Positions 834-44,312 of a DNA stretch of 64,000 nt are shown here, piece after piece (the first letter of the stretch is position 1; every line of letters starts with the position of its first letter). The stretch covers positions 62,001 through 126,000 of the forward strand of contig NZ_FNPT01000001.1 of the NCBI RefSeq assembly GCF_900107375.1, in the 5' to 3' direction. The translations under genes were made by a program, and so were the position numbers. This DNA comes from Lysobacter sp. yr284 (lineage in GTDB: Bacteria; Pseudomonadota; Gammaproteobacteria; Xanthomonadales; Xanthomonadaceae). Under the pieces are notes generated by a model. That model was not told the DNA's origin, did not search any database, and saw only the letters and a program-made list of their open reading frames with translations.

Positions 834-1128
834 GTTGCGCGGCGCTGTGCGGCGCAACATGCATGCAGCGGCGACGCGACGCGATGCCCGCCGCCATCCG
901 CCTGCCGCCGCGCTGATAGATGTAATCGAGTTGGCGTTCTGCGCAATGGGTCGCTCGCCACGGCGCGCGCGCGCCCGCATGATGCAGGACCGCTCGCGTA
1001 CGGTCGCCCGACCCAGGCGCGCGCGATCCACGCGTATCGCCGCGCACGCCTGCCGCGAGAGTCTGCGGCGAACGCGGTCACGCGACCCGAGCCGATGACG
1101 GACGCGCCCCGCGCGCGATGGAGCGAGC

Positions 1129-2589
1129 ATGGCCGATTACGATGGTTACGATGTCGTGGTGGTGGGCAACGGCATACTGGGCATGGCGACCGCGCATGCG
1201 CTGCGGTTGCGCGATCCGGGCTTGCGCGTGGCCGTGGTCGGCCCGGCGCCGCGGCCGGGCGCGGCCTCGGCCGCCGCCGGCGCGATGATGGGCTGCTACG
1301 GCGAAGTCACCGCGCAGCTGCTGCGCACGCCGTCCGGACGCGCCAAGCTCGCCAAGGGTCTGCTCGCCGCGCAGCATTGGCCGGACTGGCTCGACAGCAT
1401 CAACCAGGCCCTGCCGGCCGAGGATCATGTCGCGCTGACGCCGGGCACGATCGTCTTCAGCAACAACAAGTCCGGGATCATCGAGGACGAGAACTACGCG
1501 GCCATCGTGCAGGCGCTGGAGGAAAACGGCGCGGCCTACGAGACGCTCGACCCCAACCGCATCGACGGCCTCGCCCCGGCCGAGGACTGCCGCCCCAGCC
1601 GGGCCCTGTACCTGCCCGACGAAGGCTCGATCGACGCCGCCAAGTTATTGAGCGCGCTGAGCGCGCTGATCGAGCGCGCGCCGAACCTGAGCTTCATCGA
1701 CGACACCGCGACCGGCCTGGACATCCACGGCGGCCGCATCCAGGCCGTGCGCCTGCGCGAGGGCGGCCGCGTCGCCGCGCCCCAGGTCGTGCTCGCCGCC
1801 GGGGTCTGGACCCAGGCCGTGCTCGACAGCGTGCCGGAGCTGGCGCGGCGCATTCCGCGGCTGTTCTGCGGCGGCGGCACCTCGCTGCTGCTCGACACCG
1901 GCCCGCGCGCGCAGGCGCACGTGCTGCGCACGCCCAACCGCGCCTTCGCCTGCGGCCTGCACGCGGTGCCGCGCGGCGGCGGCCGGCTCTACGTCGGCGC
2001 CACCAACACCCTGTTCGCCCAGCCGATGCTGCGGACCTCGCCGGCGGACATGTTTTTCCTGCTCGAATGCGCGCTGGATCAGCTCGACCAGGACCTGTGC
2101 GCGGCGCAGCTGGTGGCCTGGCAGGCCGGCAACCGCCCGGTCGCGGTCGACACCTGCCCGCTGATCGGCCCGACCTCGGTCGAGGGCCTGTGGCTGCTGA
2201 CCGGCACCTACCGCGATGGCCTGTTCCTGTCGCCGCTGCTGGGCCAGCACATCGCCGACCGCGTCTGCGGCGGCCCCGGCCTGTTCGAGGAGACCTTCGC
2301 GCCCGAGCGCAAGCCGATCCGGCTCTACACCGGCGAACAAGCGCGCGCCGAAGCGCTCAAGCACTACCTGGCGATGGGCTCCGAGCACGGCATCCGCCTG
2401 CCGCGGGTGGGCTGGCACCATGCGTTTCCGCGCTTCTACGAGCAGATGCTCAACGGCCTGTACGACGAACTGGGCGAAGACGAATTCGTGCTGGCGCCGG
2501 AACTGCTGGCCATCGTCGCCGCCGACCGCGCGCGGATGGTGCCGTTCTTCCGCGACTACTACGCGCAGGTCCGCCAGGCCTGGGCCTGA
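1129..2589 (+). CDS. FAD-dependent oxidoreductase (DAO superfamily), candidate RiPP tailoring enzyme
   Basis: 486 residues. The N-terminus carries an ADP-binding Rossmann motif (VVVVGNGILGMATA, about residues 9-22). An LAAGVWT segment lies near the middle and a TGTYRDGLFLSPLLG segment towards the C-terminus, the arrangement seen in D-amino-acid oxidase/glycine oxidase (ThiO) type flavoproteins, PF01266. About 100 further residues follow the usual end of the fold, so it is longer than ThiO. No signal peptide is visible, so it should be cytoplasmic. The ATG has GGAG nine bases upstream. The gene converges on the methyltransferase gene with only 6 bp between stop codons, next to the putative peptide-modification operon. 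That position suggests oxidation of an amine or amino acid residue on the peptide or of a small precursor, but the substrate is unknown. A plain amino acid oxidase role is the main alternative. Confidence 0.8.
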   Translation: MADYDGYDVVVVGNGILGMATAHALRLRDPGLRVAVVGPAPRPGAASAAAGAMMGCYGEVTAQLLRTPSGRAKLAKGLLAAQHWPDWLDSINQALPAEDHVALTPGTIVFSNNKSGIIEDENYAAIVQALEENGAAYETLDPNRIDGLAPAEDCRPSRALYLPDEGSIDAAKLLSALSALIERAPNLSFIDDTATGLDIHGGRIQAVRLREGGRVAAPQVVLAAGVWTQAVLDSVPELARRIPRLFCGGGTSLLLDTGPRAQAHVLRTPNRAFACGLHAVPRGGGRLYVGATNTLFAQPMLRTSPADMFFLLECALDQLDQDLCAAQLVAWQAGNRPVAVDTCPLIGPTSVEGLWLLTGTYRDGLFLSPLLGQHIADRVCGGPGLFEETFAPERKPIRLYTGEQARAEALKHYLAMGSEHGIRLPRVGWHHAFPRFYEQMLNGLYDELGEDEFVLAPELLAIVAADRARMVPFFRDYYAQVRQAWA

Positions 2590-2595
2590 GCCGGC

Positions 2596-3480
2596 TCAGG
2601 CGGCGCCGCCGTCGCGCAGGAACCAGGCCGACAGGCTGCGCCGCCACTGCTGGAAATAGGCGCTGTCGCGCTGCGGCGCGATCGTCGCCGCCGCGGTGTC
2701 GATGCGCTGCATCGCGGCGTAGCCGAGCCGGGCCATCGCGCCGGCGATCAGGCGTTCGCCGAGCACCAGCGAATAGCCGCAGTCCGGGCGCCGGTTGTAG
2801 CGGTAGTTGCAGCTGTTGACCAGGTTCGGCACCACCGCGCGCAGCTCGGCGACGCCGTCGTCGAGCGTGTCGACCAGGATCGCGCGCGGGCGCAGGTGCG
2901 CCATCGCTTCCAGCAGCAGGAACGGATGGGCCGAGTGATAGAGCACGCCGGCGCAGACCACCACGTCGAACCGGTCCTGGCCCAGGTCCCACAGGACGTG
3001 GTGCATGTCGCCGGCGACGAGGTCCAGGCGCTCGCCGAAGCGTTCGCGCAGGTGGCGCACGCAGCGCGGGTTGTTCTCCACCGCGGTGACTTGCGCGGCG
3101 TGGGCCAGCAACGCCTCGGTCAGGCCGCCGGTGTGCGCGCCCAGTTCGAGCACGCGCGCGCCGCGCAGGCGTTCGGCCTGGGTATCGATAAGCCAGTGCC
3201 GGCGCACCGGCGTGGCGTGGGTGTGGTCGGCCTGCTCCAGCACCACCTCGAAGCGCTGCGGCCATTGCGCCAGCGGCATGCGGCCGTCGGCGGCGTCGCG
3301 ATCGAGCCAGGCGTAATCGACCGCGTCGGCGTCGCGGCGCAGCACCATCACCGCTTCGGCCGGGTCCGTGCGCGAACGCCAGATCTCGCCGGCGCAGGGC
3401 GCCTCGTCGGCCTCGCTCGCGGCGGCGACGGGATCGGCGGGCGGCGCTTGCGCCGGGCGTTGCGGTTGGGCGTGCTGCAT
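2596..3480 (-). CDS. Class I SAM-dependent methyltransferase
   Basis: 294 residues. SAM-binding motif I is VLELGAHTGG (about 110-119). An acidic residue after the second strand (VTAVENN) and VVVCAGVLYHS (about 173-183) follow, typical of a Rossmann-type class I methyltransferase and reminiscent of DUF1698/CmoB-like proteins. The first 40 residues are low complexity, and no clear Shine-Dalgarno precedes the ATG, so a later start is possible. It is the last gene of the minus-strand peptide cluster, 63 bp after the precursor gene, and is separated from it by a strong hairpin. Methylation of the modified peptide (N-, O- or carboxyl) is inferred from position only. A small-molecule or tRNA methyltransferase cannot be excluded. 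Confidence 0.8.
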   Translation of the reverse strand: MQHAQPQRPAQAPPADPVAAASEADEAPCAGEIWRSRTDPAEAVMVLRRDADAVDYAWLDRDAADGRMPLAQWPQRFEVVLEQADHTHATPVRRHWLIDTQAERLRGARVLELGAHTGGLTEALLAHAAQVTAVENNPRCVRHLRERFGERLDLVAGDMHHVLWDLGQDRFDVVVCAGVLYHSAHPFLLLEAMAHLRPRAILVDTLDDGVAELRAVVPNLVNSCNYRYNRRPDCGYSLVLGERLIAGAMARLGYAAMQRIDTAAATIAPQRDSAYFQQWRRSLSAWFLRDGGAA

Positions 3481-3495
3481 GCGGGCGGCGCCAAC

Positions 3496-3523
3496 CCTGC
3501 CGCGCCCTTGCGGGCGCGGCAGG
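3496..3523 (-). terminator. Strong hairpin between precursor and methyltransferase genes
   Basis: A perfect 12-bp stem (CCTGCCGCGCCC with its complement) closes on a 4-base loop, in the 63-bp spacer after the precursor stop. No T-run follows on the minus strand, so it is more likely a partial terminator or an mRNA-stabilising structure than a full intrinsic terminator. Such a structure would let the small precursor be made in excess over the enzyme encoded downstream. Confidence 0.5.
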
Positions 3524-3543
3524 TCCAGCGACAGGCGCGGGCG

Positions 3544-3690
3544 TCAGTTGCTCGGCGGGGCCGGCGAAACGTTGTACGGCGGCCACCAGCGGCGCTCGTC
3601 GGCCGAGCCCGTGGTCACTTCCGATTCTTCCAGCGCCTTCTTGTTGCTCAACAGGTCCTTCAAGGTATCCAGGTTGGTTTCATTGCTCAT
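3544..3690 (-). CDS. Putative RiPP precursor peptide (48 aa)
   Basis: A 48-residue peptide without a signal sequence. Residues 1-34 look like a leader: an amphipathic, charged helix (LDTLKDLLSNKKALEESE, about 7-24), a flexible TTGSAD segment and a basic R33-R34 pair. The last 14 residues, WWPPYNVSPAPPSN, form an unusual aromatic/proline-rich, Lys/Arg/Asp/Glu-free tail, the expected look of a core peptide. The ATG at 3690 has a strong AGGAG eight bases upstream. An in-frame ATG 51 bases earlier is much less well placed. It sits between the PqqD-like gene and the methyltransferase gene, the normal place for a precursor in such clusters. The assignment as precursor is inference from size, composition and neighbours; I know of no named family for it. 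Confidence 0.75.
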   Translation of the reverse strand: MSNETNLDTLKDLLSNKKALEESEVTTGSADERRWWPPYNVSPAPPSN

Positions 3691-3808
3691 GGACGTTCTC
3701 CTGTGGAATGGACGTACTGTCTTGCTCGATCGCTGCGGCATCCGTGCCGTCGCTTGCTACCGCTCCTTTCGCGTGGCCCGCCGCGGGGCCGTAACAGGTG
3801 GGTCCGGC

Positions 3809-4096
3809 TCAGGCCGGCGCCGCCTCGATCAGGCGGCTGCCGAGCAGCGACTCCAGGCCGCGCTCGGCGCGGGCGCGGGCATCGCCGCCGCCGAGCTTGT
3901 CGCCGGCGAGTTCGGCATAGCCCTGCGCGACCGCGTCGACGCTGCGGCCGTCGCACAGCTCGAACAGCAGCCAAGTGTCCAGCGCCAGCCAGTGGATGCG
4001 GCCGGACTGCGGCGAGAACACCATCAGGCATTCGGCCTGCGGCACCGGGCGCGAGCGCACTCCGTCGGCCTTGCGTACGCTGTCTTGTGCGTTCAT
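3809..4096 (-). CDS. PqqD-like peptide-recognition protein (RRE)
   Basis: 95 residues, the normal size of a stand-alone PqqD-family protein. The order of beta strands (VRSRPVPQAECLMVFSPQSG), a short turn and helices carrying WLLFELCDGRS matches the winged-helix PqqD fold, the commonest RiPP recognition element that holds the leader peptide for its enzymes. The FELCDGRS motif is repeated exactly in the C-terminal domain of the HExxH protein encoded by the first gene of the operon, which suggests that both domains bind the same leader. The ATG overlaps the stop of the preceding HExxH gene (ATGA), so translation is coupled. A 118-bp gap then separates it from the precursor gene; I see no clear promoter there, only the precursor's ribosome-binding site. 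Confidence 0.85.
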   Translation of the reverse strand: MNAQDSVRKADGVRSRPVPQAECLMVFSPQSGRIHWLALDTWLLFELCDGRSVDAVAQGYAELAGDKLGGGDARARAERGLESLLGSRLIEAAPA

Positions 4097-5274
4097 GCGG
4101 CCTCCCGCGCGTCGGCGAACATCGCCTCGTCCACCGGCGCCAGCGCGCTGCGCAGCCAGTGGATCAGTTCGAACCCGCCGGGCGAGAGCAGGTGCGACCA
4201 CTCGCCTTCGAGCATCTCGCCCAGGTAGCGGGCGCGGTCGATCGAGCGCCCGTAGCGGTGGGCGGTGTCGTTGTTGACCACCGACATCGCATGCGCCCGG
4301 CTCACATAAGCCAGCGGGTCGCCGTACAGCTCGAAGCAGCGCGGGTCGGCGACCAGCGCCGCGGCCTTGAACAGCGACAGGTGCACGTAGACGTGGTACG
4401 CGAAGATCGCGCGCACGATCGACCAGCGCACGTTGCGCCACGGCACCTGGATGGTCGCGTCCGGCTCCTTGGCCAGCGACACCGAGCGCGCGGCGTCGAA
4501 CAGCTTCATGTGCAGGCCTTCGTGCAGCAGGCAGCCGGCGATGTCCCAGGGGTTGCCGAGCTGGTCGAGCGAGACGAACACGGTCGAAGGAGTGAGGTCG
4601 CCGCCGGCGGCCGACAGCACGATCCCGCCCTCCAACTGCGCTTCCAGCAAGGCGATCGCGCCGACATGGCGCAGCGCCGCCGGCCCGGAGTTCGGCAGCA
4701 GCATCGACAGCAGCGCGATCGAATCCTGCACTTTCTTCTGCGCGCCCGCGTCGGGGTTCAACAGGACGCCGCGGTTGGCCGGGTTGTCGGCGAAGATGCG
4801 GTCGAACGCGGCCTGCAACTGCGCGGCGAGCGGGTCGTCGCTGCCGACGATCGACCACATCCAGTGATGCTCGTTGGACTGCAGGCCCCAACGTTGCAGC
4901 ATGTGCGATTCGCACAGCCCCGCCGGCAACGCGGCGATGGCCTGCGGCAGCAACGCCTCGAACCGATGCGGCGAGGCCAGCTGCCCGCTCTCCAGTTCGG
5001 AGAACGCATCCTCGGCCGCCAGCCGCACCAGCGGATCGAAGAAGATCCGCCGCAGGTCGGCGTCGGGCATCGCCTCCACCTGCGCCAGCAGCGCCGCCGC
5101 CTGCGGCAGGCGCTGCGCGAACAGTTCGGTGCCGAAGCGGTAGCGCGCGTAGACCTTGGCCAGGATGCGCTGCGAATCGCCGAAGTTCGGATGCTGGGCG
5201 AGGGTGCGGTCGGCCGCGGCGACGAGCTGGGCCTGCGGCGAGTGGGCGTGGGTCGACCCGGAAGACGCGCTCAT
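4093..5274 (-). CDS. HExxH-type putative peptide beta-hydroxylase (second copy, no PqqD domain)
   Basis: 393 residues. The zinc-protease-like signature LLHEGLHMK (H251, E252, H255) is followed by FAYHVYVHL (291-299), which offers further His, and by SRAHAMSVVNN (325-335). This layout matches the HEXXH-motif RiPP family (TIGR04267-type), whose members have been described as alpha-ketoglutarate/Fe(II)-dependent peptide beta-hydroxylases rather than proteases. The start is the ATG that overlaps the previous stop (ATGA), and its own stop overlaps the PqqD-like gene in the same way. It aligns along its length with the first gene of the operon (shared features include N-W/PWD before the HExxH, YVHL and HAMSVVNN) but lacks the fused C-terminal PqqD domain; the separate PqqD protein next door probably fills that role. 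Its substrate is inferred to be the 48-residue peptide. Confidence 0.85.
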   Translation of the reverse strand: MSASSGSTHAHSPQAQLVAAADRTLAQHPNFGDSQRILAKVYARYRFGTELFAQRLPQAAALLAQVEAMPDADLRRIFFDPLVRLAAEDAFSELESGQLASPHRFEALLPQAIAALPAGLCESHMLQRWGLQSNEHHWMWSIVGSDDPLAAQLQAAFDRIFADNPANRGVLLNPDAGAQKKVQDSIALLSMLLPNSGPAALRHVGAIALLEAQLEGGIVLSAAGGDLTPSTVFVSLDQLGNPWDIAGCLLHEGLHMKLFDAARSVSLAKEPDATIQVPWRNVRWSIVRAIFAYHVYVHLSLFKAAALVADPRCFELYGDPLAYVSRAHAMSVVNNDTAHRYGRSIDRARYLGEMLEGEWSHLLSPGGFELIHWLRSALAPVDEAMFADAREAA

Positions 5275-6773
5275 GCCGCCCTCCCCTCGCGCAGCGCGGC
5301 GCGCTGGCCCTGCGCCACGATCATGCCGCTGGCGACCAGGCTGTCCAGCATCGGCTCGACCTGTTGCCAGGCCCGCTCCGACGCCAGCCCGGCGATGTCG
5401 GCATAGGCCTGGGTGAGATCGTGTTCGCTGCGCCCGTCGCACAGTTCGAACATCAGCCAGGCTGCGGTGTTGAGCTTCTGGATCTTGGGCCGGGCCAGGT
5501 CGGCCGCGAACAGGATGCCGCGGTCGCCGACCGGGCGCAGTTGCAGTTGCGGGTTCTTGGCGTAATGCACCGACGTCGCCGGCGCGCCGGCCGCGGCCTG
5601 CGCGGCCTCGCCGCCGGCGCCGGCCTGCGGCGAAACCGACAGGTCGATCAGCGGCGCGATCGCCGCGCACAGCCAATCGACCATGCGCCGCGCGTACGGG
5701 GTGAGGTAGTACGACCACTGGGTGCGGAACTGCTGGGCCAGGTAGGCCATGCGTTCGTGCCCGCGCGAGAACGGCGCGGCCGAGGCGTTGTTGACCACCG
5801 ACATCGCATGCGGCCGGGTCGCGGCGCGATAGCTTTCCGGCGCGCCGTAGACCGCATGCAGCTGCGGCCCGATCTGCTCGACCGCGGTGCGGAAGATCTG
5901 CAGGTGGACGTAGGCGTGGAACGCGAACAGGCAGTTCGACACCGAGATCTCGCGGCCCCACGGCAGCTTCACCATGTCCTCGCGTACCACCGCGGCGCTG
6001 GTGCGGACCATGTCGGAGAGCTTGAGGTGCACGGCCTCGTGCATGATGTGCACCGCCGTGTCCCAGGGATTGGCCAGTTCCTCCGGCGCGATGAAGATCA
6101 TGCACGGCGTCGAGTCGCCGCCCGAGGCGGTCAGCATCGGCCCGCGCTCGTTGCGCATGTTCGCGAACGCGACCGAATGCAGGTGGCCGAACACGCTGCG
6201 CGCGACCTGTGGCACCAACGATTGCAGCAACGAGCAGGCGCGGTCGAGCTGGGCCACCATCTGCGGCGTCGGCCGCACCAGTTCGGCCTCGCAGTGGCCG
6301 CCGGGCATGAAGCCCAGGCGCAGCGCCTCGCGCAGCGCGTCGGCGACCGGCGCGGGCGCGTCGGGCAGGTCCCAGATCCAGATGCGGCGGCCGTCGAGGT
6401 CGGGGCCGGCGACGAAGCTGCGTTCCATCGCCGAAGCCGACAGGCTCAGCGGCTGCTCGATCCGTTCCAGCGACTGCGCCAGGCTCCAGGCCAGCAAGCC
6501 CGCCTGGTGGATCGGCGCGACCCCGGTTTCCAGGCGCTCGATCGCCGCTTCCAGCTCGGCGCGCACCAGCAGGTCGCCGAACAGCTTGTCGGCGCGGCGC
6601 TCGTCCAAGGCATCCAGCGCCGGCAGCAACGCCTGCAGCGCGGCGTCTTCGCGCGCCAGCACCGCCAGCGCGAATCGATAGCGTTCGACGTTGAGCCGGA
6701 CGATCTGTTGCGAATTGCCGAACTCGTCGTGGGCCTGCAGGCCCGCGTCGACTTGCTTGATCAGATCTCTCAT
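5271..6773 (-). CDS. HExxH-type putative peptide beta-hydroxylase fused to a PqqD-like domain
   Basis: 500 residues. Residues 1-375 form the HExxH domain: NPWDTAVHIMHEAVHLK (H245, E246, H249), then LFAFHAYVHL (282-291) and PHAMSVVNN (321-329). A low-complexity Ala/Gly linker (about 382-400) leads to a PqqD-like domain (about 403-495) containing AAWLMFELCDGRS, the same core motif as the stand-alone PqqD protein downstream. The fusion puts the leader-binding element on the enzyme. The ATG at 6773 is preceded by GAGG/AGG about 10 bases upstream, and no other in-frame start lies nearby. It is the first gene of the minus-strand operon and overlaps the next gene by ATGA. The family is known for hydroxylating side chains in RiPP precursors; which residue is modified here cannot be read from sequence. 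Confidence 0.85.
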   Translation of the reverse strand: MRDLIKQVDAGLQAHDEFGNSQQIVRLNVERYRFALAVLAREDAALQALLPALDALDERRADKLFGDLLVRAELEAAIERLETGVAPIHQAGLLAWSLAQSLERIEQPLSLSASAMERSFVAGPDLDGRRIWIWDLPDAPAPVADALREALRLGFMPGGHCEAELVRPTPQMVAQLDRACSLLQSLVPQVARSVFGHLHSVAFANMRNERGPMLTASGGDSTPCMIFIAPEELANPWDTAVHIMHEAVHLKLSDMVRTSAAVVREDMVKLPWGREISVSNCLFAFHAYVHLQIFRTAVEQIGPQLHAVYGAPESYRAATRPHAMSVVNNASAAPFSRGHERMAYLAQQFRTQWSYYLTPYARRMVDWLCAAIAPLIDLSVSPQAGAGGEAAQAAAGAPATSVHYAKNPQLQLRPVGDRGILFAADLARPKIQKLNTAAWLMFELCDGRSEHDLTQAYADIAGLASERAWQQVEPMLDSLVASGMIVAQGQRAALREGRAA

Positions 6774-7305
6774 GGGAAGACCTACCTCGCGAAATCCAGC
6801 GTTCGAGTTGTCGTTGCGTGCGCGACGAGCGCCGTGCGACAGGTGCGCCGCGCTCGTCCGACCTTTGGGCTTATAGCAAGAAGCCGTCATGCGCTTTTGT
6901 GCGTGCGCATCGCAAACCGGCAAGTTTTTTTCTGTATGCGGCTCATGCGGCCGAACCAGCGCTCGCGCGGCGGCACATCGCGCGTCAAAGCGCAAAGCGT
7001 GTCGCAAAACAGTTCATCGCCGTCGAATGCGCGCGCAGATTCGCGGCCCCGATCGCACACAACACGCCCGATGCGGCAAAACAACGCGCATCGCGCGCGC
7101 GATCGCCCGCCGCGAGGCGGTCGCGCGCGGCGGGCGGCGCTGCGCGCCGATTGCGGATGCGCCGGCGGCGCTGCATCGCAACAAGGAATTGCGGCGCGGC
7201 CAGCCGTCGCGGCGCGAGTCGCGGCATGACAATCGTCATGCCGACGGCAGTCGCGATGGCGATGCCGGCGCGTACGCCGCGCGGCTTCGCGCCGCGCGCA
7301 ACGGC
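6774..7305. promoter_or_regulatory. Spacer upstream of the RiPP operon, probable promoter region
   Basis: 532 bp between the dnaB stop and the first HExxH gene, with no supportable gene. It includes the least GC-rich patch nearby (about 6860-6945, with runs of A and T). On the minus strand TATAAG (6875-6870) is a possible -10 element, which would give a leader of about 90 bases; I find no convincing -35 at the right distance. The half nearer dnaB (about 6960-7300) is extremely GC-rich, with many CGCG and GCGC steps and no clean terminator hairpin. Confidence 0.35.
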
Positions 7306-8718
7306 TTACTCGAAGCTGCCGATCGAGTCGTGGGCGAGATTGTCGAAGCGGGTGTACTCGCCGAAGAACTTGAGCTTGAGCGAGCCGGTCGGGCCGGAAC
7401 GCTGCTTGCCGATGATGACCTCGGCCAGGCCCTTATCGGGCGAGGTCTCTTTGTTGTAGTAGTCGTCGCGGTAGATGAAGATGATGATGTCCGCGTCCTG
7501 CTCGATCGCGCCGGATTCGCGCAGGTCGGCCATCACCGGGCGCTTGTCGGCGCGCTGTTCCAGCGAGCGGTTGAGCTGCGACAGCGCGATCACCGGCAGG
7601 TTCAGCTCCTTGGCCAGGTGCTTGAGCGAGCGCGAGATCTCCGAGATCTCGGTCGCGCGGTTTTCCTGGTTGCCCGGCACCGACATCAGCTGCAGGTAGT
7701 CGATCACGATCAGGCCCAGGTCGTGCTCGCGCTTGAGCCGGCGCGACTTGGCGCGCAGCACGTCCGGCGACAGGCCCGGGGTGTCGTCGATGAAGATCTT
7801 GACCTCGCGCAGCTGGCGGATCGCGCCGGTCACGCGCGCCCAATCCTCGTCCTCGAGCTGGCCCGAGCGCAGGCGTTGGGCGTTGACCCGGCCGACCGAG
7901 GAGATCAGGCGCAGCGCGAGCTGGCTGGCCGACATTTCCATCGAGAACACCGCCACCGCCTTCTTGGTGCGGAAGGCGACGTGCTCGGCGATGTTGAGGG
8001 CGAAGGTGGTCTTGCCCATCGCCGGACGCGCGGCCAGGATCAGCAGGTCGGTGTTCTGCAGGCCCGCGGTCATCTCGTCGAATTCGGTGTAGCCGGTCGG
8101 CAGGCCGGTGACCGCGCCGCCGTTGGCGTAGCGCGTCTGCAGCACGTCGAAGGCTTCCGACAGCGCCTTGGTCACCGGGGTGAAGTCGGTGCGCCCGCGC
8201 GCGCCGGCCTCGGCGATGGCGAACACCTGCTGCTCGGCCTTGGACAGGATCTCGCTGCTGTCGCGGCCGTCGGGCTGGAAGCCGTCGTTGACGATCTCGG
8301 TGCCGACCTCGATCAGCTTGCGCATCACCGCCTTGTCGCGAACGATTTCGGCGTACGCGGCGATGTTGGCGGCCGACGGCGTGGTCGTGGCCAGTTCGAT
8401 CAGGTAGGCGCCGCCGGCGACCTGCTCGCTCAGGCCCTGCGAATCGAACCATTCGCCCAGGGTCACCGCGTCGAACGGGCGGCTGCGCTCGGCCAGCTCG
8501 CGGATCGCGCGGTAGATCAGCTGGTGGTCGCGGCGGTAGAAGTCTTCCTCGACCAGCTGGTCGGCGATGCGGTCGTAGGCGTCGGGCGCCAGCATCAGGC
8601 CGCCGAGCACGGCCTGCTCGGCCTCGACCGACTGCGGCGGCACGCGCAGCTGGTCGATGCGCTGCTCGGCGCGGGTCTCGAAACGTTTTTCGCCACGGAA
8701 TCCGGGACGTGAGCTCAT
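7306..8718 (-). CDS. dnaB: Replicative DNA helicase DnaB
   Basis: 470 residues, the usual length. The N-terminal DnaB domain (about 28-130) starts at VEAEQAVLGGLML. The RecA-like C-terminal ATPase has Walker A ARPAMGKTT (230-238), Walker B LIVIDYLQLM and the DnaB-typical VIALSQLNRSLE and DLRESGAIEQDAD segments. It forms the hexameric helicase that unwinds DNA ahead of the replication fork and loads primase. It lies downstream of rplI in the same direction, the usual neighbourhood in gammaproteobacteria, but the spacer with a hairpin argues for its own promoter. Nothing is unusual. Confidence 0.98.
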   Translation of the reverse strand: MSSRPGFRGEKRFETRAEQRIDQLRVPPQSVEAEQAVLGGLMLAPDAYDRIADQLVEEDFYRRDHQLIYRAIRELAERSRPFDAVTLGEWFDSQGLSEQVAGGAYLIELATTTPSAANIAAYAEIVRDKAVMRKLIEVGTEIVNDGFQPDGRDSSEILSKAEQQVFAIAEAGARGRTDFTPVTKALSEAFDVLQTRYANGGAVTGLPTGYTEFDEMTAGLQNTDLLILAARPAMGKTTFALNIAEHVAFRTKKAVAVFSMEMSASQLALRLISSVGRVNAQRLRSGQLEDEDWARVTGAIRQLREVKIFIDDTPGLSPDVLRAKSRRLKREHDLGLIVIDYLQLMSVPGNQENRATEISEISRSLKHLAKELNLPVIALSQLNRSLEQRADKRPVMADLRESGAIEQDADIIIFIYRDDYYNKETSPDKGLAEVIIGKQRSGPTGSLKLKFFGEYTRFDNLAHDSIGSFE

Positions 8719-9098
8719 CGGGGAGACGATCCTGGTCGGTGCGGCCGCGGTCGCGGCCGGCCTGCGGCGGGAGGCCGGGATGTCGCCCGGGGGCTCATCC
8801 TAGCGGCCAGGGCGCGCAGGGGGTTGCAGACAAAACAGTGGAAAGGCTGTGGACAACGGGTGGGTCGTTTATGCGCCCGCCGCGTCTACGTAGCTAAGAC
8901 TGACCGAACATCGCCGAACGGCGGCGAAACCGCCGGGTTCGATGCGGCCTTGTCGAATGTGGACGGATCGGCCCTGCGCCGGCTCGTTGGGATCGCCGGT
9001 ACCCAGACGATCCGCGCCTTGCGCGCAAACGAAAGGCGCCTCGCGGCGCCTTTCGTTCGCTCGCGACCGCGCCGTCGGGCGCGGATCGCGTTGTCGGA
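8719..9098 (-). promoter_or_regulatory. dnaB upstream spacer
   Basis: 380 bp between the rplI stop and the dnaB start. It contains the hairpin at 9028-9057 and a moderately AT-rich patch (about 8820-8900, including GTCGTTTATGCG) where the dnaB promoter probably lies. I cannot pick a convincing -35/-10 pair. No gene is seen. Confidence 0.3.
9028..9057 (-). terminator. Terminator-like hairpin after rplI
   Basis: A perfect 13-bp stem (AACGAAAGGCGCC with its complement) with a TCGC loop, 42 bp past the rplI stop. No T-run follows the stem, but the A/T-rich base of the stem and the position make it the likely end of the rpsF-rpsR-rplI transcript. Confidence 0.65.
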
Positions 9099-9551
9099 TC
9101 AGCCCGCGTCGCCGATCACGATCACCTTGACGGTGGTCTCGACGTCGGCGTGCAGGTGGACCAGCACGTCGTACTCGCCGGTGCGGCGGATCGGGCCTTC
9201 GCCCATGATCACTTCCGACTTGCCGACTTCGAACCCGGCCTTGGTCAGCGCATCGGCGATGTCGCGCGGGGTCACCGAGCCGTACAGCTTGCCTTCGGTG
9301 GCGGCGTTGGCGGTGATGGTCACCTCGACGCCTTCCAGCTTGGCCTTGCGGCCTTCGGCGCCTTCCAGCAGCGAGCTGGCCTTGGCTTCGTACTCGGCGC
9401 GGCGGGTCTCGAACTCGGCCAGGTTGGCGGCGGTGGCCGGCACGGCCTTGCCCTGCGGGACCAGGTAGTTGCGGCCGTAGCCCGGCTTGACGTTGACCTT
9501 GTCGCCGAGGTTGCCGAGGTTGGTGACTTTCTGCAGCAGGATCAGTTGCAT
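9099..9551 (-). CDS. rplI: 50S ribosomal protein L9
   Basis: 150 residues, standard length. The N-terminal domain [19 protein letters not shown] and the [13 protein letters not shown] segment are hallmarks of L9. A long connecting helix and a C-terminal rRNA-binding domain ([12 protein letters not shown]) follow. L9 binds 23S rRNA near the L1 stalk and supports reading-frame fidelity. It is the third gene of the ribosomal operon, after a 209-bp spacer holding two hairpins, so its level may be set apart from that of S6 and S18. Confidence 0.98.
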
Positions 9552-9696
9552 GGGATTGCTCCGTATTCGTTAGCGGGCCTGTAGGCCCGCAGCAGGATTC
9601 GCTGTCCGAAGAGCTGGAATCGGGATGGCGCTTGGGCGCTTGGGGGCGCCGGGCTCGGCCGCGAAAGGGTTTCGCGACGCGTGGCCCTCGCCCCTG

Positions 9697-9720
9697 CCCT
9701 CTCCCGCACGCGGGAGAGGG
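9697..9720. repeat. Short palindrome (CCCTCTCCCGC type)
   Basis: An 11-bp stem, CCCTCTCCCGC with its complement around AC, in the spacer between rpsR and rplI. The motif resembles the short GC-rich palindromes scattered in xanthomonad intergenic regions. It may act as an RNA hairpin inside the operon transcript. Confidence 0.5.
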
Positions 9721-9729
9721 AGACAAGGA

Positions 9730-9752
9730 GTTCGCCCGCTCGGCGGGCGAAC
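9730..9752 (-). terminator. Hairpin directly after rpsR
   Basis: A perfect 10-bp stem (GTTCGCCCGC with its complement) and a 3-base loop, 8 bp past the rpsR stop on the minus strand. Without a T-run it is at most an attenuator or a processing/stability element between rpsR and rplI. Confidence 0.45.
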
Positions 9753-9760
9753 CGCTTTGC

Positions 9761-9991
9761 TCAGGCGTTGTGGTTGTCGGTGTACGGGATCAGCGCGAGG
9801 AAACGCGCGCGCTTGACCGCCGTGGCCAGCTGGCGCTGGTACTTCGACTTGGTGCCGGTGACGCGGCTCGGCACGATCTTGCCGGTCTCGGTCAGGTACT
9901 GGCGCAGGGTGTTGAGATCCTTGTAATCGATCTCCTTGACGCCCTCGGCGGTGAACTTGCAGAACTTGCGGCGGCGAAAGAACTTGGACAT
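9761..9991 (-). CDS. rpsR: 30S ribosomal protein S18
   Basis: 76 residues, full length. [10 protein letters not shown] at the N-terminus, the [19 protein letters not shown] segment and the [19 protein letters not shown] core are diagnostic of S18. It pairs with S6 on the platform of the 30S subunit. It lies 22 bp after rpsF and is co-transcribed with it. Confidence 0.98.
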
Positions 9992-10013
9992 GGGAATGCG
10001 TTCCTAGAAGGGA

Positions 10014-10442
10014 TCAGGCGGCTTCGGTGGTGTCTTCGGCGCTGTCGGCGGAACCGACGGCGCTGTCGCTGTCGTCGTCGCGACGACGGCGCTCACCGCG
10101 CTCGGGCTTGTCGCCCTTCTCGTCCTTGAACTTCATGATCAGCGACTGCTCGGTGTCGGCGTCGTCGCGCTTCATGACCAGGTGACGCAGGACCGCGTCG
10201 TTGAAACGGAAACCGTCGACCAGCTCGTTGAGCACGGTCTGGGTGACTTCGATGTTCAACAGGACGTAGTGGGCCTTGACCAGGTTCTCGATCGGGTAGG
10301 CCAGCTGGCGGCGGCCCCAGTCTTCGAGACGGTGGATCTTGCCTTCGCCGGCTTCGATCAGCGACTTGTAGCGCTCGATCATGGCCGGGACCTGCTCGCT
10401 CTGGTCCGGGTGGACCAGGAACACGACTTCGTAATGACGCAT
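10014..10442 (-). CDS. rpsF: 30S ribosomal protein S6
   Basis: 142 residues. [18 protein letters not shown] at the N-terminus and [21 protein letters not shown] in the middle are characteristic of S6. The C-terminus (about 105-142) is a charged tail rich in Asp, Glu and Arg, longer than in many bacteria and resembling the variable tail that can receive glutamate residues in E. coli. AAGGA lies 11 bases before the ATG. It is the first gene of the operon with rpsR and rplI. Confidence 0.97.
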
Positions 10443-10562
10443 TGCTGTGATTCCTTGTGGATGAAGGAACGCCGACGGCGCTCCCGTTCAGCCCCCCGAG
10501 GCCGTGGTCCGGCCCGGTGGAGCAAGGGTCCGCAAAGGCCATGGGCCTCTGGGGAGCCGCGC

Positions 10563-10592
10563 ATTATGACGGGTGCGCGGGGCGCGGCGCAA
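10563..10592 (-). promoter_or_regulatory. Sigma70-type promoter for rpsF-rpsR-rplI
   Basis: On the minus strand, -35 TTGCGC (10592-10587) and -10 CATAAT (10568-10563) are separated by 18 bp. Transcription would begin near 10556, leaving a leader of about 113 bases that is rich in G and C and can fold. S6/S18 often repress their own mRNA through such a leader, but I could not fold or match it here. The spacer 10593-10723 beyond the promoter holds nothing else recognisable. Confidence 0.55.
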
Positions 10593-10723
10593 ATCGGGCG
10601 GGTTCAGGCGGCGAGTTCAAGGCGGCAGGCCCGCGTCGGGCGCTGCGGGCCGAACCGGAGGCGCAGCCGCTCGCCCGGTCCGTGTCTGGACGATCCATGG
10701 GATCGGTTCGCTGAGGCGGCCGC

Positions 10724-12175
10724 TCAATGCGCCGGGGCGTCCGGCCAGTCTCGCAATGTTACGCGACCGTCCTCGCTGGCGGCAGGCGCCAGCGCCGGCA
10801 ACTCGAACCAGCCCTGCAGCCGCAGCGGCGGCGATTCGGCGACCAGGCGACGCCAGGCCGGCACCGCCGCGGCGTCGGCCGGCAGCGGCGGCAGATGAGC
10901 GAGCAGTTCGCAGCCCAGCGCCTGCCAGGCTTGCTGCGGGCCGATCCAGCGGCCCGGCGCGGCCGCGGCCTGCGGCGGATAGGCGTGGGCCAGACGCAGG
11001 CGGGCGCCGCCCTGGCGCCAGGCCTGGGCGGCGTCCCAGTCCAGGTTGGCCGCCGGCAAGGCCAGCGCGGTCGGTGCCGCTGCAGCGCCTGGCGGCGGCA
11101 AGGGCGACAGCGCCAGGACCGCAGCGGGCCCGGCCCCGGCGGCGGTTTCCGGGGCGAGCAGGCTTGCGGTCTCTTCGACCGCCCTGCCTTGCGCCGCGAG
11201 CTCCGCGGCCAGCGAGCGCGCCTGGGCGACGGCGGCCGGATCGTCCGGATCGCGGTACAGCCGCCAGCGCACCGCGCGCGGCCGTTCGGCGATCAGCGCC
11301 CGCGCCTGCTCGAGCTGGCCGGGCAAGCCGAACCGCACCGTCGCCGCCTCCGGCGCCAGGCCGCGCAGGCTCACCGGCAACAGCAGCGGCAGCCCGGCCG
11401 GCGGCGGCGCGGCCGCCAGCGCGGCTTCGGCGTCGATCAGGTACGGCCCGAACAGCGCCGCCACACGGCCGGCGCGCTCGCGCGCGGCCACTTCGGCCAC
11501 GGCTTGCGGCCAATCGCGGTAACGCAGCACCTCCAGCGCCGGCCGCCGGCGTCCCGCCGCCGGGCCCGGACAGTTGCGCCAGCCTTCCAGCAAACGTTCG
11601 GCGGGCCCGGCGTCGCGTTGGGGCAGCAGCACCAGCAAGGCCGGCGGCGCGGCCGCGTCGGCGCCGCGATCGAGCGCGCGCAGGTGGGCGAACACGGCAT
11701 CGAGTTCGTCGTCGGCGAGGTCGTAGCGCGGCATCGCCGGATCCAGCCCGACCCCGTCGGCGGCCACCCCGGCGCGCAACGCGCGGGCGAGCGCGGCGCG
11801 GTCGTAGCCCGGACGCCGGCTGCCGTCGTCGCGCAGGCGCGGCCGGCCGAGCGCGAACCAGCGCAGGTCGGGGGCGCGCACCCAGCCTTCGCCGCCACCG
11901 CGGCCGTCGCCACCGTGGCAGTTGGCGCAGGCGACCGCGCCGCCGCGCAGGCCGACCGCACCGCCGGCGCCGATGCGCGCGCCGATTTCGCGGCCGTCGC
12001 GGCCGAGGCCGAGTCGATAGAGGCGGCGGCCGAGTTCGAGGCGGAGCGCATCGGCGGCGGTGGCCGGATCCAAGGCGACGCCGTCCGCCGGCGCCGGCCG
12101 CGACGCGCCGTTCGCCGCCAACGTCAGCGACAGGGCCAACGCGGCGATACCAAGGCGCGCTGTGCCAGAGCGCAC
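10724..12175 (-). CDS. Secreted c-type cytochrome with a substrate-binding-like C-terminal part
   Basis: 483 residues from a GTG start that has GGGAG four bases upstream. A signal peptide (hydrophobic segment about 7-22) is followed by a single haem c motif CANCH (83-87) in a class I cytochrome-like domain (about 30-170) in which a MPRYDL Met (about residue 150) could be the axial ligand. The remaining about 310 residues have an alternating alpha/beta pattern reminiscent of periplasmic binding proteins, but I cannot name the family. It is the last gene of the multicopper-oxidase operon, 62 bp after an SCO-type gene. A role in electron transfer to or from the oxidase is inferred from position. 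Confidence 0.75.
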   Translation of the reverse strand: MRSGTARLGIAALALSLTLAANGASRPAPADGVALDPATAADALRLELGRRLYRLGLGRDGREIGARIGAGGAVGLRGGAVACANCHGGDGRGGGEGWVRAPDLRWFALGRPRLRDDGSRRPGYDRAALARALRAGVAADGVGLDPAMPRYDLADDELDAVFAHLRALDRGADAAAPPALLVLLPQRDAGPAERLLEGWRNCPGPAAGRRRPALEVLRYRDWPQAVAEVAARERAGRVAALFGPYLIDAEAALAAAPPPAGLPLLLPVSLRGLAPEAATVRFGLPGQLEQARALIAERPRAVRWRLYRDPDDPAAVAQARSLAAELAAQGRAVEETASLLAPETAAGAGPAAVLALSPLPPPGAAAAPTALALPAANLDWDAAQAWRQGGARLRLAHAYPPQAAAAPGRWIGPQQAWQALGCELLAHLPPLPADAAAVPAWRRLVAESPPLRLQGWFELPALAPAASEDGRVTLRDWPDAPAH

Positions 12176-12237
12176 GACTCCCGCGCCGGTTTCGTTTGCG
12201 CAGCGCCGATGCCCGCGGCGCGCGCGCGCCGCTGCGG

Positions 12238-12861
12238 TCACAGCGCCTCGCCGGCGAGCCGGCGCAGGTCGGCGGCGATGCGCTCGGGCGGCGCGTCCGG
12301 ACGCAGCTTGGTCCAGTGCGCGCGGCGCGCGTTGCCGGCGATCAGCAGCGTGGTGTGGTCCTCGGCCTTGTCGCTCCATTGCCCGAGCCGGCCGAGCACC
12401 GCGCGCGTGGTCGCCGCGTCGGCGACCAGGAAGCGCCAGCCCGGCTCGTCCACGCCCTGTTGCGCGGCGAAGCGCTTCATCGCCTGCGGCGTGTCGTAGG
12501 CCGGATCGACCGACAGCGACAGGAACCGCACTTCGCGCCCGAACTGCTCGCCCAGTTCGCGCCGCACCGCCTTGAGGTGCTGGGTCATCAGGGGGCAGGC
12601 GCTCGGGCAGCGGGTGAACACGACGTTGATCAGCACCACCTTGTCGCTGAGCAGGTCGGTGTAGAAACGCTGGCGGCGGCCGTCCTGGTCGGTGAGTTCG
12701 GCATCGCCGAAATAGGCGCGGCCGCGCGCTTGCGGATCGGCGGCCCCGGATGCGGGCGCCGATGCCGCGCCCGCACCGCCGCCGTCGGCGCTGGCCGGCG
12801 CGGCGGCGGCCAGCGCGAGCATCAGCGCGAGCGCCGGCAACGTAGCGTCAATGCGCGGCAT
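12238..12861 (-). CDS. SCO1/SenC-type copper chaperone (copy A)
   Basis: 207 residues with an N-terminal signal segment (ALALMLALAAAAPASA). The thioredoxin-like SCO fold is marked by VVFTRCPSACPLM (CxxxC copper site), LSLSVDPAYDTP, and the later His in DHTTLLI, the three elements that bind copper in this family. It should sit in the periplasm and deliver copper, or reduce Cys, for assembly of copper enzymes. The ATG has a strong GGGAGGG upstream and overlaps the end of copy B by 14 bases. In this operon the client is more likely the giant multicopper oxidase than cytochrome oxidase. Confidence 0.88.
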   Translation of the reverse strand: MPRIDATLPALALMLALAAAAPASADGGGAGAASAPASGAADPQARGRAYFGDAELTDQDGRRQRFYTDLLSDKVVLINVVFTRCPSACPLMTQHLKAVRRELGEQFGREVRFLSLSVDPAYDTPQAMKRFAAQQGVDEPGWRFLVADAATTRAVLGRLGQWSDKAEDHTTLLIAGNARRAHWTKLRPDAPPERIAADLRRLAGEAL

Positions 12862-13636
12862 GATCGCCCTCCCCGGCCGCGCGCGCCGGATCGCGCAGTT
12901 GCCGCACCGCGGCGGCGACCTGCAGCGGATCGGGCATGCCGACCCAGCGCAGCCAGCGGCCGCTGGCCGGATGGCCCACCAACACCATCGGCGCATGGTC
13001 TTCCGGCGCTCCCGCCGGCACCCCGAACGCGCGCAGGCTGCGCTCGACTTCGCTGCGCTCGCCGGTCAGCCACCACCAGCGCTCGCCGGCGCCGACCCGG
13101 GTCGCGTAGGCGTCCATGCGCGCCGGCGTGTCGCGCGCGGGATCCACCGACAGCGACAGCAGTTGCCAGTCGGCGCCGCCGTCGCGCTGCAGGCGGGTCT
13201 GCACCGCGCTCATGATCGCGGTCAGCGCGGGACAGATCGTGGTGCAGTGGGTGAACACGAAATCGATCACGACGACGCGGTCGCCGAAGGCCTGTGCATC
13301 GAGCCGCAGTTCGCGACCGTCGCGCTGGCGCAGCCGCGTGCCCGGCAAGCTCACTGCGGTGGCCGAAGCGCCGGCGGGCGCGGCCGCCAGCGCGGCGCGG
13401 TGGGCCGCGTGCGGATCGGCGTCGGCCGCGGGCGCCGACGGCGCCGCCAGCGCGGCGGCGAGCCACAGCGCCGCGACGGCGAAGCCTCGCGATCCTCGCA
13501 CGCTGTAAGGCGCAGCCTCGTCGGCCTGCAGCGACGGCGCGGCCCGCGCTCTGCGCGCTTGCCCGCGCGACTGCGTAGGCGGCTGCGCTGCCGCTTGCGA
13601 CCGCGGCCGCAGGTACTTCCGTGTCGTCGTGTCCAT
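12848..13636 (-). CDS. SCO1/SenC-type copper chaperone (copy B), membrane anchored
   Basis: 262 residues. A basic N-terminal tail of about 45 residues precedes a membrane anchor (AVAALWLAAALAA), then the SCO domain with DFVFTHCTTICPAL (CxxxC), LSLSVDPARDTP and DHAPMVLVGHP (copper-binding His). GGAG eight bases upstream supports the ATG at 13636, which lies 2 bases after the beta-propeller stop. The long cytoplasmic tail is unusual for the family; a GTG start at 13501 just before the anchor would remove it but has a poorer ribosome site. Two different SCO proteins in one operon suggest staged copper delivery. Confidence 0.87.
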   Translation of the reverse strand: MDTTTRKYLRPRSQAAAQPPTQSRGQARRARAAPSLQADEAAPYSVRGSRGFAVAALWLAAALAAPSAPAADADPHAAHRAALAAAPAGASATAVSLPGTRLRQRDGRELRLDAQAFGDRVVVIDFVFTHCTTICPALTAIMSAVQTRLQRDGGADWQLLSLSVDPARDTPARMDAYATRVGAGERWWWLTGERSEVERSLRAFGVPAGAPEDHAPMVLVGHPASGRWLRWVGMPDPLQVAAAVRQLRDPARAAGEGDHAAH

Positions 13637-13638
13637 GC

Positions 13639-42878: not shown

Positions 42879-42959
42879 GGTGTGGCCTCTTGCGGTGTTG
42901 CGGCGCTGCGTTGCCGCGGCACGGCGCGCCCGTCGCCGGGCGCGCCGCCCGCGCTGCGG

Positions 42960-44294
42960 TCAGACCGCGTCGGACAGCGAGGTGAAGGTGAAATCGCGCA
43001 GCTTCATCGGCGGGATCATCATCACCGAGTCGGATTCGTCGCCGGCCACGCGCACCGGCCGGCCGAGCTCCTCGATGTTGTTGAGCATGATCACCGGCGA
43101 CTCGTTGAAGCGGAAGTTCTTGATCGGGTATTTGATCTGCCCGTTCTCGATGTAGAAGGTGCCGTCGCGGGTCAGCCCGGTCAGCAGCACGGTCTGCGGA
43201 TCGACCATGCGGATGTACCAGGTGCGGGTGACCAGGATGCCCTTCTGGGTGCCCTTGACCAGTTCGGCGGTGGTCTTGTCGCCGCCGGACATCAGCAGGT
43301 TGCCCGGCTTGCCGACCGCGCGCTTGCCCTGCTTTTGCGCCCAGTAGCGCGAATAGTCCAGCGCCACCACCTTGCCGTTCTCGACGATCGGCATCTTCTC
43401 GCGCGGCAGGCCTTCTTCGTCCCACGGCATCACCGGCGCGCGCGGGTCCCAGGGATCGGCGAGGAAGTTCACCCGCGGGTCGTAGACCTGTTCGCCGAGC
43501 TTGTTGCCGCCGCCCTTCTTGGAAAGGAAGCTGCGGCCTTCGTCGGCCTGGCGCGCGTCGAAGAAGTTCATCATGAACGAGATCAGCCCGGCCGCCGCGT
43601 GCGGCTCCAGGATCACCGTGTACTTGCCCGGTTCCAGCGCCTTGGCCTCGGCCGATTCGGTGGCCTTGCGCATGGCGATGCGGATGTCGGCGTCGGCCTT
43701 GAACGCGTCGGCGTCGGTCAGGTCGCGGCCGACCCAGCCCGAGCCGCGGCCGTCGTCGGTGCGCACGGTGCAGGTGTAGTTGAAGTTGGTCGCGGTCTGG
43801 TAGCCGAAGTTGCCCTTGCTGTTGGCGAAGGCGACGAAGCTCTGGCCGTCCTCGAGGAAGCCGGCGGCGGTCAGCTTGGCCTCGCGGCACGGCGCGATCG
43901 AGTCGGCGGCGACCTTGGCCCGGAACTCCGGGTCGATCGCCGCGGTCGAGGCGGAGAACGTCGGGCTGGGCTTGTAGGTCTGCTTGTCGATGATCGGCAT
44001 GAACTCCGGGTTTTCCGGAGCCAGCTTGGCCAGGTCCTCGGCGCGGCGGACCACGCGTTCGAGCGCGGCGTCGTCGAACTCGTTGATGGTGGCCACGCCC
44101 ACGCGCTTGCCGAAGGACACCTGCACGGCCAGGTCGACGTCGCTGACCACGCCGCTGGTGGAGATGTTGTTGAGGGCGAAACGGATGTTGCCGTCGATCG
44201 ATCCGGTCAGCCGCGCGCTGGTCTCGTCGGCCTTCGACAGCGCCATGACCTTGTCCAGGATCGCCTTGGACTGGGCTTCGGTGAAGATGCTCAT
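42960..44294 (-). CDS. TldE/PmbA-like protein
   Basis: 444 residues, full PmbA/TldE size, without the HExxxH metal motif found in TldD, as expected for the non-catalytic partner. Features are YTVILEPHAAAGLISFMM, SFLSKKGGGNKLGEQVYDPRV and NLLMSGGDKTTAELVKG. No signal peptide is visible (it begins MSIFTEAQSKAIL), although both TldD-like neighbours carry Tat signals; it may ride out with a partner or act in the cytoplasm. It lies between the two TldD-like genes, 18 bp and 81 bp from them. Confidence 0.88.
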   Translation of the reverse strand: MSIFTEAQSKAILDKVMALSKADETSARLTGSIDGNIRFALNNISTSGVVSDVDLAVQVSFGKRVGVATINEFDDAALERVVRRAEDLAKLAPENPEFMPIIDKQTYKPSPTFSASTAAIDPEFRAKVAADSIAPCREAKLTAAGFLEDGQSFVAFANSKGNFGYQTATNFNYTCTVRTDDGRGSGWVGRDLTDADAFKADADIRIAMRKATESAEAKALEPGKYTVILEPHAAAGLISFMMNFFDARQADEGRSFLSKKGGGNKLGEQVYDPRVNFLADPWDPRAPVMPWDEEGLPREKMPIVENGKVVALDYSRYWAQKQGKRAVGKPGNLLMSGGDKTTAELVKGTQKGILVTRTWYIRMVDPQTVLLTGLTRDGTFYIENGQIKYPIKNFRFNESPVIMLNNIEELGRPVRVAGDESDSVMMIPPMKLRDFTFTSLSDAV

Positions 44295-44312
44295 AGTGTT
44301 CTCCTGCCCCGG

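Follow-up and report, generated by a model that had tools for sequence, protein, structure and literature searches.

A candidate RiPP gene cluster in Lysobacter that pairs two HExxH-type hydroxylases with an Orf1-like FAD enzyme

The 64,000-nucleotide stretch of Lysobacter sp. yr284 analysed here (the window; contig C32 of a 6.25-Mb genome) carries, beside dnaB, a compact group of six genes that we describe as a cluster for a ribosomally synthesised and post-translationally modified peptide (RiPP). An earlier, sequence-only reading had listed two HExxH proteins (here HX1 and HX2), PqqD-like parts, a 48-residue peptide, a methyltransferase and a flavoprotein that uses flavin adenine dinucleotide (FAD). 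Each of these is present at the position it had been assigned, which confirms that the cluster and its parts are real (Table 1). Five genes share one strand and the FAD enzyme converges on them, its gene being separated from that of the methyltransferase by 6 bp. The ATGA overlaps ascribed to the cluster are found at the HX1/HX2 and HX2/PqqD junctions but nowhere else; the peptide gene lies 118 bp downstream of the PqqD-like gene and is followed by the methyltransferase gene. Profile searches of the six proteins between the flanking genes found no radical S-adenosylmethionine (SAM) enzyme of the kind that marks the pyrroloquinoline quinone (PQQ) and mycofactocin pathways.

Table 1. Features of the Lysobacter locus, in window coordinates (aKG, alpha-ketoglutarate; RRE, RiPP recognition element)
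Feature	Position	Strand	Basis
HX1: aKG-HExxH peptide hydroxylase (HEAVH) with C-terminal PqqD/RRE-like domain, 500 aa	5271..6773	-	
HX2: aKG-HExxH peptide hydroxylase (HEGLH), 393 aa	4093..5274	-	TIGR04267 profile; model fold
Separate PqqD/RRE-like protein, 95 aa	3809..4096	-	Weak profile matches; similarity to fused domains
Precursor peptide, 48 aa, core VTTGSADERRWWPPYNV	3544..3690	-	Conserved in relatives' loci
Class I SAM methyltransferase, 294 aa, Lysobacter-specific accessory	2596..3480	-	Pfam Methyltransf_25, E 3.8e-11
Orf1-type FAD enzyme, predicted N-iminoacetyl/N-formimidoyl transferase, 486 aa	1129..2589	+	Full-length homology
Insertion bearing the entire cluster, between a lipoprotein-like gene and dnaB	845..7303	.	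Empty site in G018

On the earlier reading, absence of the short open reading frame (ORF) beside the HExxH genes of relatives would have refuted the proposal, and the ORF turns out to be conserved. HX relatives occur in 28 loci, 7 from Lysobacter and 21 from myxobacteria, and 25 of these keep the ORF, 22 times with WWPP and three times with WLPP; the three loci that lack it (L068-L070) hold remote HExxH proteins only. A conserved precursor gene beside leader-binding modifying enzymes, the arrangement expected of a RiPP locus, is present in every one of the 22 loci that bear both HExxH genes. These 22 share the core VTxGSxxERxWWPP[YH]xV, with Y in 21 and H in one; the core of the three single-HExxH loci is VTQGSAQERDWLPPH. 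The aromatic and Pro-rich tail noted previously is therefore conserved as far as VTxGSxxERxWWPPYxV is concerned, whereas the Pro-rich end SPAPPSN varies even within Lysobacter. Constraint on the peptide is also seen in its codons, of which 10 out of 48 differ synonymously and 0 change an amino acid between the window and locus L024, against 78-87% identity for the neighbouring proteins. In a 12-row alignment over three phyla, including two Streptomyces peptides, E32, R33, W35 and P37 (window numbering) are invariant, and AGGAG precedes the ORF in 7/7 Lysobacter loci.

Both HExxH proteins score above the NCBIfam cut-off of 40 bits for TIGR04267 (HX2 61.4, HX1 60.7) and they are the sole matches to this family in their own genome at E <= 0.001. 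The predicted models, although of moderate confidence, both adopt a ChlH-like fold (TM 0.39-0.62). ChlH (8s5f) is the best Foldseek match of HX2 (pLDDT 78.6; probability 1.00, E 6.7e-6, TM 0.46-0.52 by query length) and of HX1 (pLDDT 75.4; probability 1.00, E 1.3e-7), the latter also matching SjiH (22ob) with E 1e-6. The motif residues H251, E252 and H255 of HX2 are invariant in 17 aligned relatives; the structure alignments comprise 17 (A1) and 16 (A2) chosen rows out of 25 and 22. Together with the conserved ORF, the family scores and the fold support the earlier proposal that a pair of aKG-HExxH hydroxylases forms the basis of a RiPP-type cluster.

Known members of the family resemble the window pair in part. 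ChlH/ChlB-HExxH shares the fold, the HExxH motif and membership of TIGR04267, but its sequence matches at E 0.01-0.0025 over about 80 residues, and the window cluster differs in that it lacks a radical SAM enzyme and has a pair of paralogues accompanied by PqqD-like domains. PflC and PosC, from the Pseudomonas pfl and pos clusters, are likewise stand-alone aKG-HExxH enzymes acting on a RiPP precursor; the pfl cluster, however, has an MNIO-nitroreductase, a GNAT protein, transporters, an NHLP-type leader and a poly-Gln-ARMD core, none of which occurs among the six genes of the window cluster. PesO of the nitrilobacillin cluster, also an aKG-HExxH enzyme, hydroxylates a Pro that co-occurs with it (PMC13060819), but its cluster has an MNIO, an Asn-synthetase-like nitrile enzyme and M16 peptidases. 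More generally, characterised members are described as hydroxylating His, Asp, Phe and Gln, with Pro in the nitrilobacillins (PMC13060819), and as being able to cleave the peptide backbone oxidatively (PMC12636437). From these precedents oxidation would be expected at the conserved Trp/Pro core. The site choice of aKG-HExxH enzymes is said to be currently unpredictable (PMC13060819).

A clue to the division of labour may lie in the number of enzymes. Two HExxH genes accompany WW in 22/22 loci, whereas one HExxH gene accompanies WL (three loci) or WV (two Streptomyces loci) in five loci of two lineages, the Streptomyces count covering the plasmids, each with one HExxH match. This pattern hints at one modification site per HExxH enzyme, and points to HX1 as probably acting on the second Trp or requiring it.

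The PqqD-like, leader-binding domains are weak by profile and better supported by fold and by relatives. The HX1 C terminus reaches 22.2 bits against a gathering score of 23.4 for Pfam PF05402, and of four other HX1 proteins that of L028 passes (27.5 bits) while those of L017, L020 and L063 fall below (17.5, 17.7 and 12.9). The separate PqqD-like protein gives E 0.05 in NCBIfam and no Pfam match, its equivalents in L026 and L065 score 13.3 and 18.0 bits against PF05402, and four myxobacterial HX2 proteins show no match to that profile. When the predicted HX1 model is compared with known structures by Foldseek, however, its C terminus has the winged-helix RRE fold, aligning with the TbiB1 RRE-leader complex (5v1v) with probability 1.00 and a root-mean-square deviation of 2.4 over 89 columns (E 0.23, computed for the whole HX1 query) and with PqqD (5sxy) with probability 0.95. 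The separate protein matches the Streptomyces HExxH-PqqD fusions (E 4e-11 and 4e-9) and is 41% identical over 63 residues to the C-terminal domain of the L015 HX1. Its counterpart in the two-HExxH myxobacterial loci is the C-terminal domain of HX2.

The flavoprotein appears to be the most informative enzyme of the cluster, and its identity would alter the predicted product. In phmmer searches residues 7-485 match the structures of Orf1 from the BD-12 pathway (8gri, E 3.8e-96; 7xqa, E 1.6e-95) with 187 of 475 aligned residues identical, the homology running over the full length and including the extra C-terminal helical domain. An assignment as the glycine oxidase ThiO was rejected, the score being 111 bits against a cut-off of 250.8. 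Orf1 is reported to oxidise glycine, to hold the product on C281 as a nitrogen-oxygen-sulfur (N-O-S, or NOS) adduct and to pass an N-formimidoyl or N-iminoacetyl group to an amine (PMC10156733). In Orf1 numbering, its NOS-site residues C281, T298, N299, F316 and E426 are invariant in 22/22 cluster enzymes, as are those of the glycine site, A54, G55, A56, M57, H284, Y294, R342 and R368. By comparison, a gapped alignment shows the single other DAO-type match in the same genome to lack C281, H284, F316, R368 and E426, as well as the C-terminal domain; of C281, E426, F316, R342, R368 and H284/Y294 it has only R342.

Conservation breaks down in the acceptor pocket. R306, E312, E313, T423, E434, M438, T466 and F470 are changed relative to Orf1, among them all six of the residues on which the comparison with its acceptor pocket was based (R306, E312, T423, E434, T466 and F470), while F279 and W435 are kept and S310 is partly kept. 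Since a different acceptor would be expected for so altered a pocket, we do not class the enzyme as a streptothricin or aminoglycoside formimidoyl synthase. Orf1 itself acts on streptothricin-type antibiotics, whereas the window enzyme belongs to a peptide cluster, and a kept catalytic site with a changed pocket is the pattern that would be expected for the same chemistry on a new acceptor. The position equivalent to E312 is Ala in 22/22 cluster enzymes, and the Orf1 variant E312A is described as giving mainly the iminoacetyl product with glycylthricin (PMC10156733); on this basis an iminoacetyl group (+71 Da) is our first guess and a formimidoyl group (+27 Da) the second.

Homologues of the FAD enzyme at 50-52% identity also occur in seven genomes of the myxobacterial order (L070, L084-L089). 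Genes judged by eye to encode non-ribosomal peptide synthetases (NRPS) or polyketide synthases (PKS) lie beside the Orf1-type genes of L086-L089; L084 and L085 share the neighbours of L086, and L070 those of L087. From these neighbours the Orf1-type FAD family is probably used in several natural-product settings, whose products may carry glycine-derived amidines. L070 (G309) also holds a RiPP-like locus (7341-15859) near its FAD gene, which is 50% identical to that of the window. The locus has an aKG-HExxH enzyme (85.5 bits) and, by eye, two similar radical-SAM-like proteins, a 54-aa peptide, a peptidase-type ABC exporter and an HlyD-like partner. The HExxH and Orf1-type genes of L070, about 5 kb apart with others between them, could be taken for a second independent pairing, but we have not counted them as one. 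The order dehydrogenase, FAD enzyme, methyltransferase and peptidase recurs beside a PKS gene in L087, which may indicate a separate pathway; the L087 contig ends within the peptidase gene, short of the expected HExxH position.

The methyltransferase is found in 7/7 Lysobacter loci, but searches of the 15 myxobacterial loci with both HExxH genes gave no match to it, and it was accordingly rejected as a core gene. The +14 Da shift that the sequence-only reading had placed beside +16 Da can then be at most a local extra of Lysobacter, and the assignment of the flavoprotein to the Orf1 type, by homology and active-site residues, makes +71 or +27 Da the shift to expect beside +16.

We tentatively propose the following course of biosynthesis. 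The PqqD-like domains of both HExxH enzymes would hold the N-terminal part of the peptide, while HX2 and HX1 oxidise the ERxWWPPY core with Fe(II), O2 and alpha-ketoglutarate, most likely by beta-hydroxylation at Trp/Pro residues with a site of its own for each enzyme. By analogy with Orf1, the FAD enzyme would oxidise free glycine and hold the product on Cys275 as an N-O-S adduct, from which transfer to a primary amine of the peptide would yield an N-iminoacetyl (+71.00 Da) or N-formimidoyl (+27.01 Da) amidine. The likeliest acceptor amines would be the new N terminus after leader removal or the conserved lysines K11 and K17, and in Lysobacter the product may also be methylated by the methyltransferase. 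Lys stands at positions 11 and 17 in 22/22 loci with the FAD enzyme and in none of five FAD-less peptides aligned or read, a pattern that may reflect divergence of the leader rather than function. For a mobile RiPP cluster that combines paired HExxH oxidation of the core with a glycine-derived amidine made by the FAD enzyme we estimate a probability of roughly 55%. What supports it is gene content, conservation, homology and active-site residues, and the reactions on the peptide are predictions from these.

Several observations weigh against this proposal. The core has no conserved lysine, K11 and K17 falling in the presumed leader, and the acceptor amine is consequently not obvious. The conserved unit contains neither an exporter nor a leader peptidase, as judged among the ORFs listed for the window to 12 kb and for four myxobacterial loci, and the PqqD profile scores are mostly under the cut-off. 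The catalytic residues of the FAD enzyme are also present in 6/6 aligned homologues outside the cluster (A54 is S in one; six of the seven homologues are in the residue table, L088 being left out), so that they mark the enzyme family and not a peptide pathway. The gene is missing from the single-HExxH loci L065-L067 and from their genomes (0/3), and the two 17-kb Streptomyces loci have no Orf1-type gene; the FAD step is thus not essential to the wider family. Orf1-E312A is further described as losing the iminoacetyl product on the longer acceptor ST-F (PMC10156733), so that the transferred group cannot be read from one residue. The correlation of WW, WL and WV with enzyme number, finally, rests on few lineages or events.

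A first alternative concerns the FAD enzyme, which could be a simple amine or amino-acid oxidase within the pathway, acting for example on a released hydroxylated fragment as MftD does on the amine of the released fragment in the mycofactocin pathway, with the Orf1 cysteine kept but unused for transfer. Its membership of the ThiO/DAO superfamily would suit this, as would the lack of a conserved acceptor lysine in the core and a pocket unlike that of Orf1. Yet the equivalents of Cys281, Phe316 and Glu426 and the C-terminal domain are kept in 22/22 enzymes and missing from the DAO-type protein of the same genome, and an oxidase would not need C281 or E426, since the Orf1 variants C281A and E426Q are described as retaining glycine oxidation while losing the end product (PMC10156733). 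We regard a simple oxidase as unlikely, and attach the same low weight to a different division of labour in the HExxH pair, in which one enzyme hydroxylates and the other cuts the precursor oxidatively in the manner of PflC/PosC. Such a cut would explain the missing protease of the conserved unit; PflC and PosC are reported to hydroxylate Gln and to cut before Ala via alpha-hydroxylation (PMC12636437), and the window peptide has the small residues G28, S29 and A30 ahead of D31-E32. However, PflC/PosC cut near the C terminus, an oxidative cut leaves a keto group rather than an amine downstream and would not feed an amine acceptor, and a subset of RiPP pathways is said to use proteases from elsewhere in the genome (PMC12636437).

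It seems more doubtful still that the product stays in the cell as a conserved redox cofactor or signal, comparable to PQQ or mycofactocin, and is not a secreted antibiotic. Such a role would be in keeping with the near-invariance of the core across two phyla, the very small size of the cluster, its PqqD-like domains and the lack of an exporter from the conserved unit, whereas the patchy, mobile distribution described below (7/20 genomes of the genus, 15/145 of the myxobacterial order, and an empty site) fits a dispensable trait and would suit something antibiotic-like; the six genes also lack a radical SAM enzyme. Least probable by far is that no RiPP is made, in which case the HExxH proteins would be metallopeptidases and the short ORF would encode a small regulatory or inhibitory protein. 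HExxH is indeed the zincin signature, and PflC is reported to hydrolyse a leaderless substrate (PMC12636437), but family and fold match aKG-HExxH oxygenases, an RRE-like domain is fused, the peptide has the shape of a precursor and the Streptomyces relatives lie beside lanthipeptide genes.

Overall, the cluster is real, conserved and of RiPP type, and its combination of enzymes is new. The earlier interpretation is partly supported and its main idea stands. That the cluster defines a new RiPP family, with an N-iminoacetyl/N-formimidoyl amidine installed by an Orf1-type FAD/NOS enzyme and paired HExxH hydroxylations of the WWPP core, we put at slightly less than an even chance. To our knowledge, the glycine-derived amidine modification is confined to streptothricin and aminoglycoside antibiotics. 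In the open-licence PMC literature we found no RiPP with an N-formimidoyl or N-iminoacetyl decoration and no paper on a Lysobacter HExxH RiPP; subscription papers lay outside this search and absence from print is not claimed. If the proposal is true, amidine installation by glycine transfer would extend from these antibiotics to ribosomal peptides and would offer a genetically encoded route to their N-formimidoylation and N-iminoacetylation. The system is also compact, comprising four genes in myxobacteria. It joins a pair of HExxH paralogues to a single short peptide and has natural relatives with one such enzyme, and the paired and single-enzyme loci would permit HExxH site choice to be tested directly.

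The distribution of the cluster is patchy. HX2 relatives occur in 7 of 199 nearest-relative genomes, all within the genus of the window (20 genomes examined), and peptide, both HExxH genes and FAD enzyme co-occur in 7/20 Lysobacter genomes, while an HX2 search of 398 genomes sampled from the phylum gives one holder, the window's own. A scan of named genomes returns two Lysobacter records (L. enzymogenes ATCC 29487 and Lysobacter sp. Root690) and six Myxococcota (two Myxococcus, two Corallococcus, one Archangium and one Myxococcaceae). Within the myxobacterial order, 21 of 145 genomes match HX2 at E <= 0.001; HX1, HX2-PqqD, peptide and FAD enzyme are found together in 15, L065-L067 have a single HExxH gene with the peptide, and L068-L070 have the remote proteins mentioned above. 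A profile search of 195 genomes of the phylum Myxococcota found no further holder at E <= 1e-20. Where myxobacterial loci have both HExxH genes (15 loci), all four genes are co-directional and the PqqD-like part lies inside the HX2 frame, and the unit HX1-HX2-peptide-FAD is kept in 15/15 of these and in 7/7 Lysobacter loci despite inversion of the FAD gene between the groups.

Its mobility is indicated by the Lysobacter genome G018, whose DnaB is 100% identical (rounded) to that of the window. Window positions 844 and 7304 map there to positions 1035 and 920 of L090, 114 bp apart, and the cluster is a clean 6.46-kb difference between the lipoprotein-like gene and dnaB. At the same place a different genome of the genus has other genes (L092:991-5265), including one for a 683-aa protein, so that the dnaB side may be a variable site in the genus. 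Lysobacter and myxobacteria are both predatory soil bacteria, and the sharing of the cluster across their two phyla suggests horizontal transfer. Lysobacter forms one starred clade in both trees but is sister to all myxobacteria in the HX1 tree and stands beside Archangium (83/57) in that of HX2, and we have left the direction of transfer unassigned since the two placements differ. The single HExxH proteins group weakly with HX2 (93/59), where the tree program warned of long branches. Sharing between the two groups, together with a clean empty site, simplifies tests of gain and loss.

More distant relatives are found on two Streptomyces plasmids (L096 and L097), which carry an HExxH-PqqD gene about 30% identical to HX2 and, directly upstream, a 45-aa ORF with ERAWVPAY. 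These loci resemble the window in the HX2-like protein, its PqqD-like C terminus and the ERxWxPxY peptide, but differ in having a single HExxH match per plasmid, WV for WW, and lanthipeptide and sulfotransferase genes that follow. In a shuffle test (3000 shuffles) of the two Streptomyces peptides, the observed score was reached by 0 and 1 shuffles against the window peptide, by 2 and 4 against that of L065, by 27 and 35 against L017 and by 80 and 100 against L020. The link is therefore fair for some pairs and weak for others, resting partly on the shared setting. ERxWxP was not found in six frames of the HExxH loci L068, L069, L070, L099 and L100, and the annotated FAD-dependent oxidoreductase of L096 does not match the Orf1-type enzyme.

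The Streptomyces genes (L096:7758-9476, L097:7718-9494) directly precede a class I lanthipeptide cluster with a sulfotransferase, which may represent the same pathway or a second one. A third Streptomyces plasmid, which is not among the HExxH matches at E 1e-8, has a 45-aa ERxWxPxY peptide followed only by a fragment like the HX2 N terminus (L098:7001-7548, E 0.001). The region L068:6602-14451 encodes a pair of remote HExxH proteins that score 26-28 bits, short of the family cut-off of 40. They accompany two peptides that have leaders of the VIGG type and a CGSTYxSCGSTYTAPEQP stretch, with, by eye, an exporter and a partner gene. As regards peptidases, L017 has a gene that by eye encodes a trypsin-like protease roughly 1 kb upstream, whereas L019 and L021 do not. 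Window positions 41253-45986, some 35 kb away from the cluster, encode three consecutive PmbA/TldD-family proteins (Pfam), a family that trims some RiPPs, two of them with Tat-like signal sequences by eye. The window also contains an open frame of 2308 aa (15738-22664) whose beginning resembles a signal sequence and which matches no Pfam family at E 1e-5.

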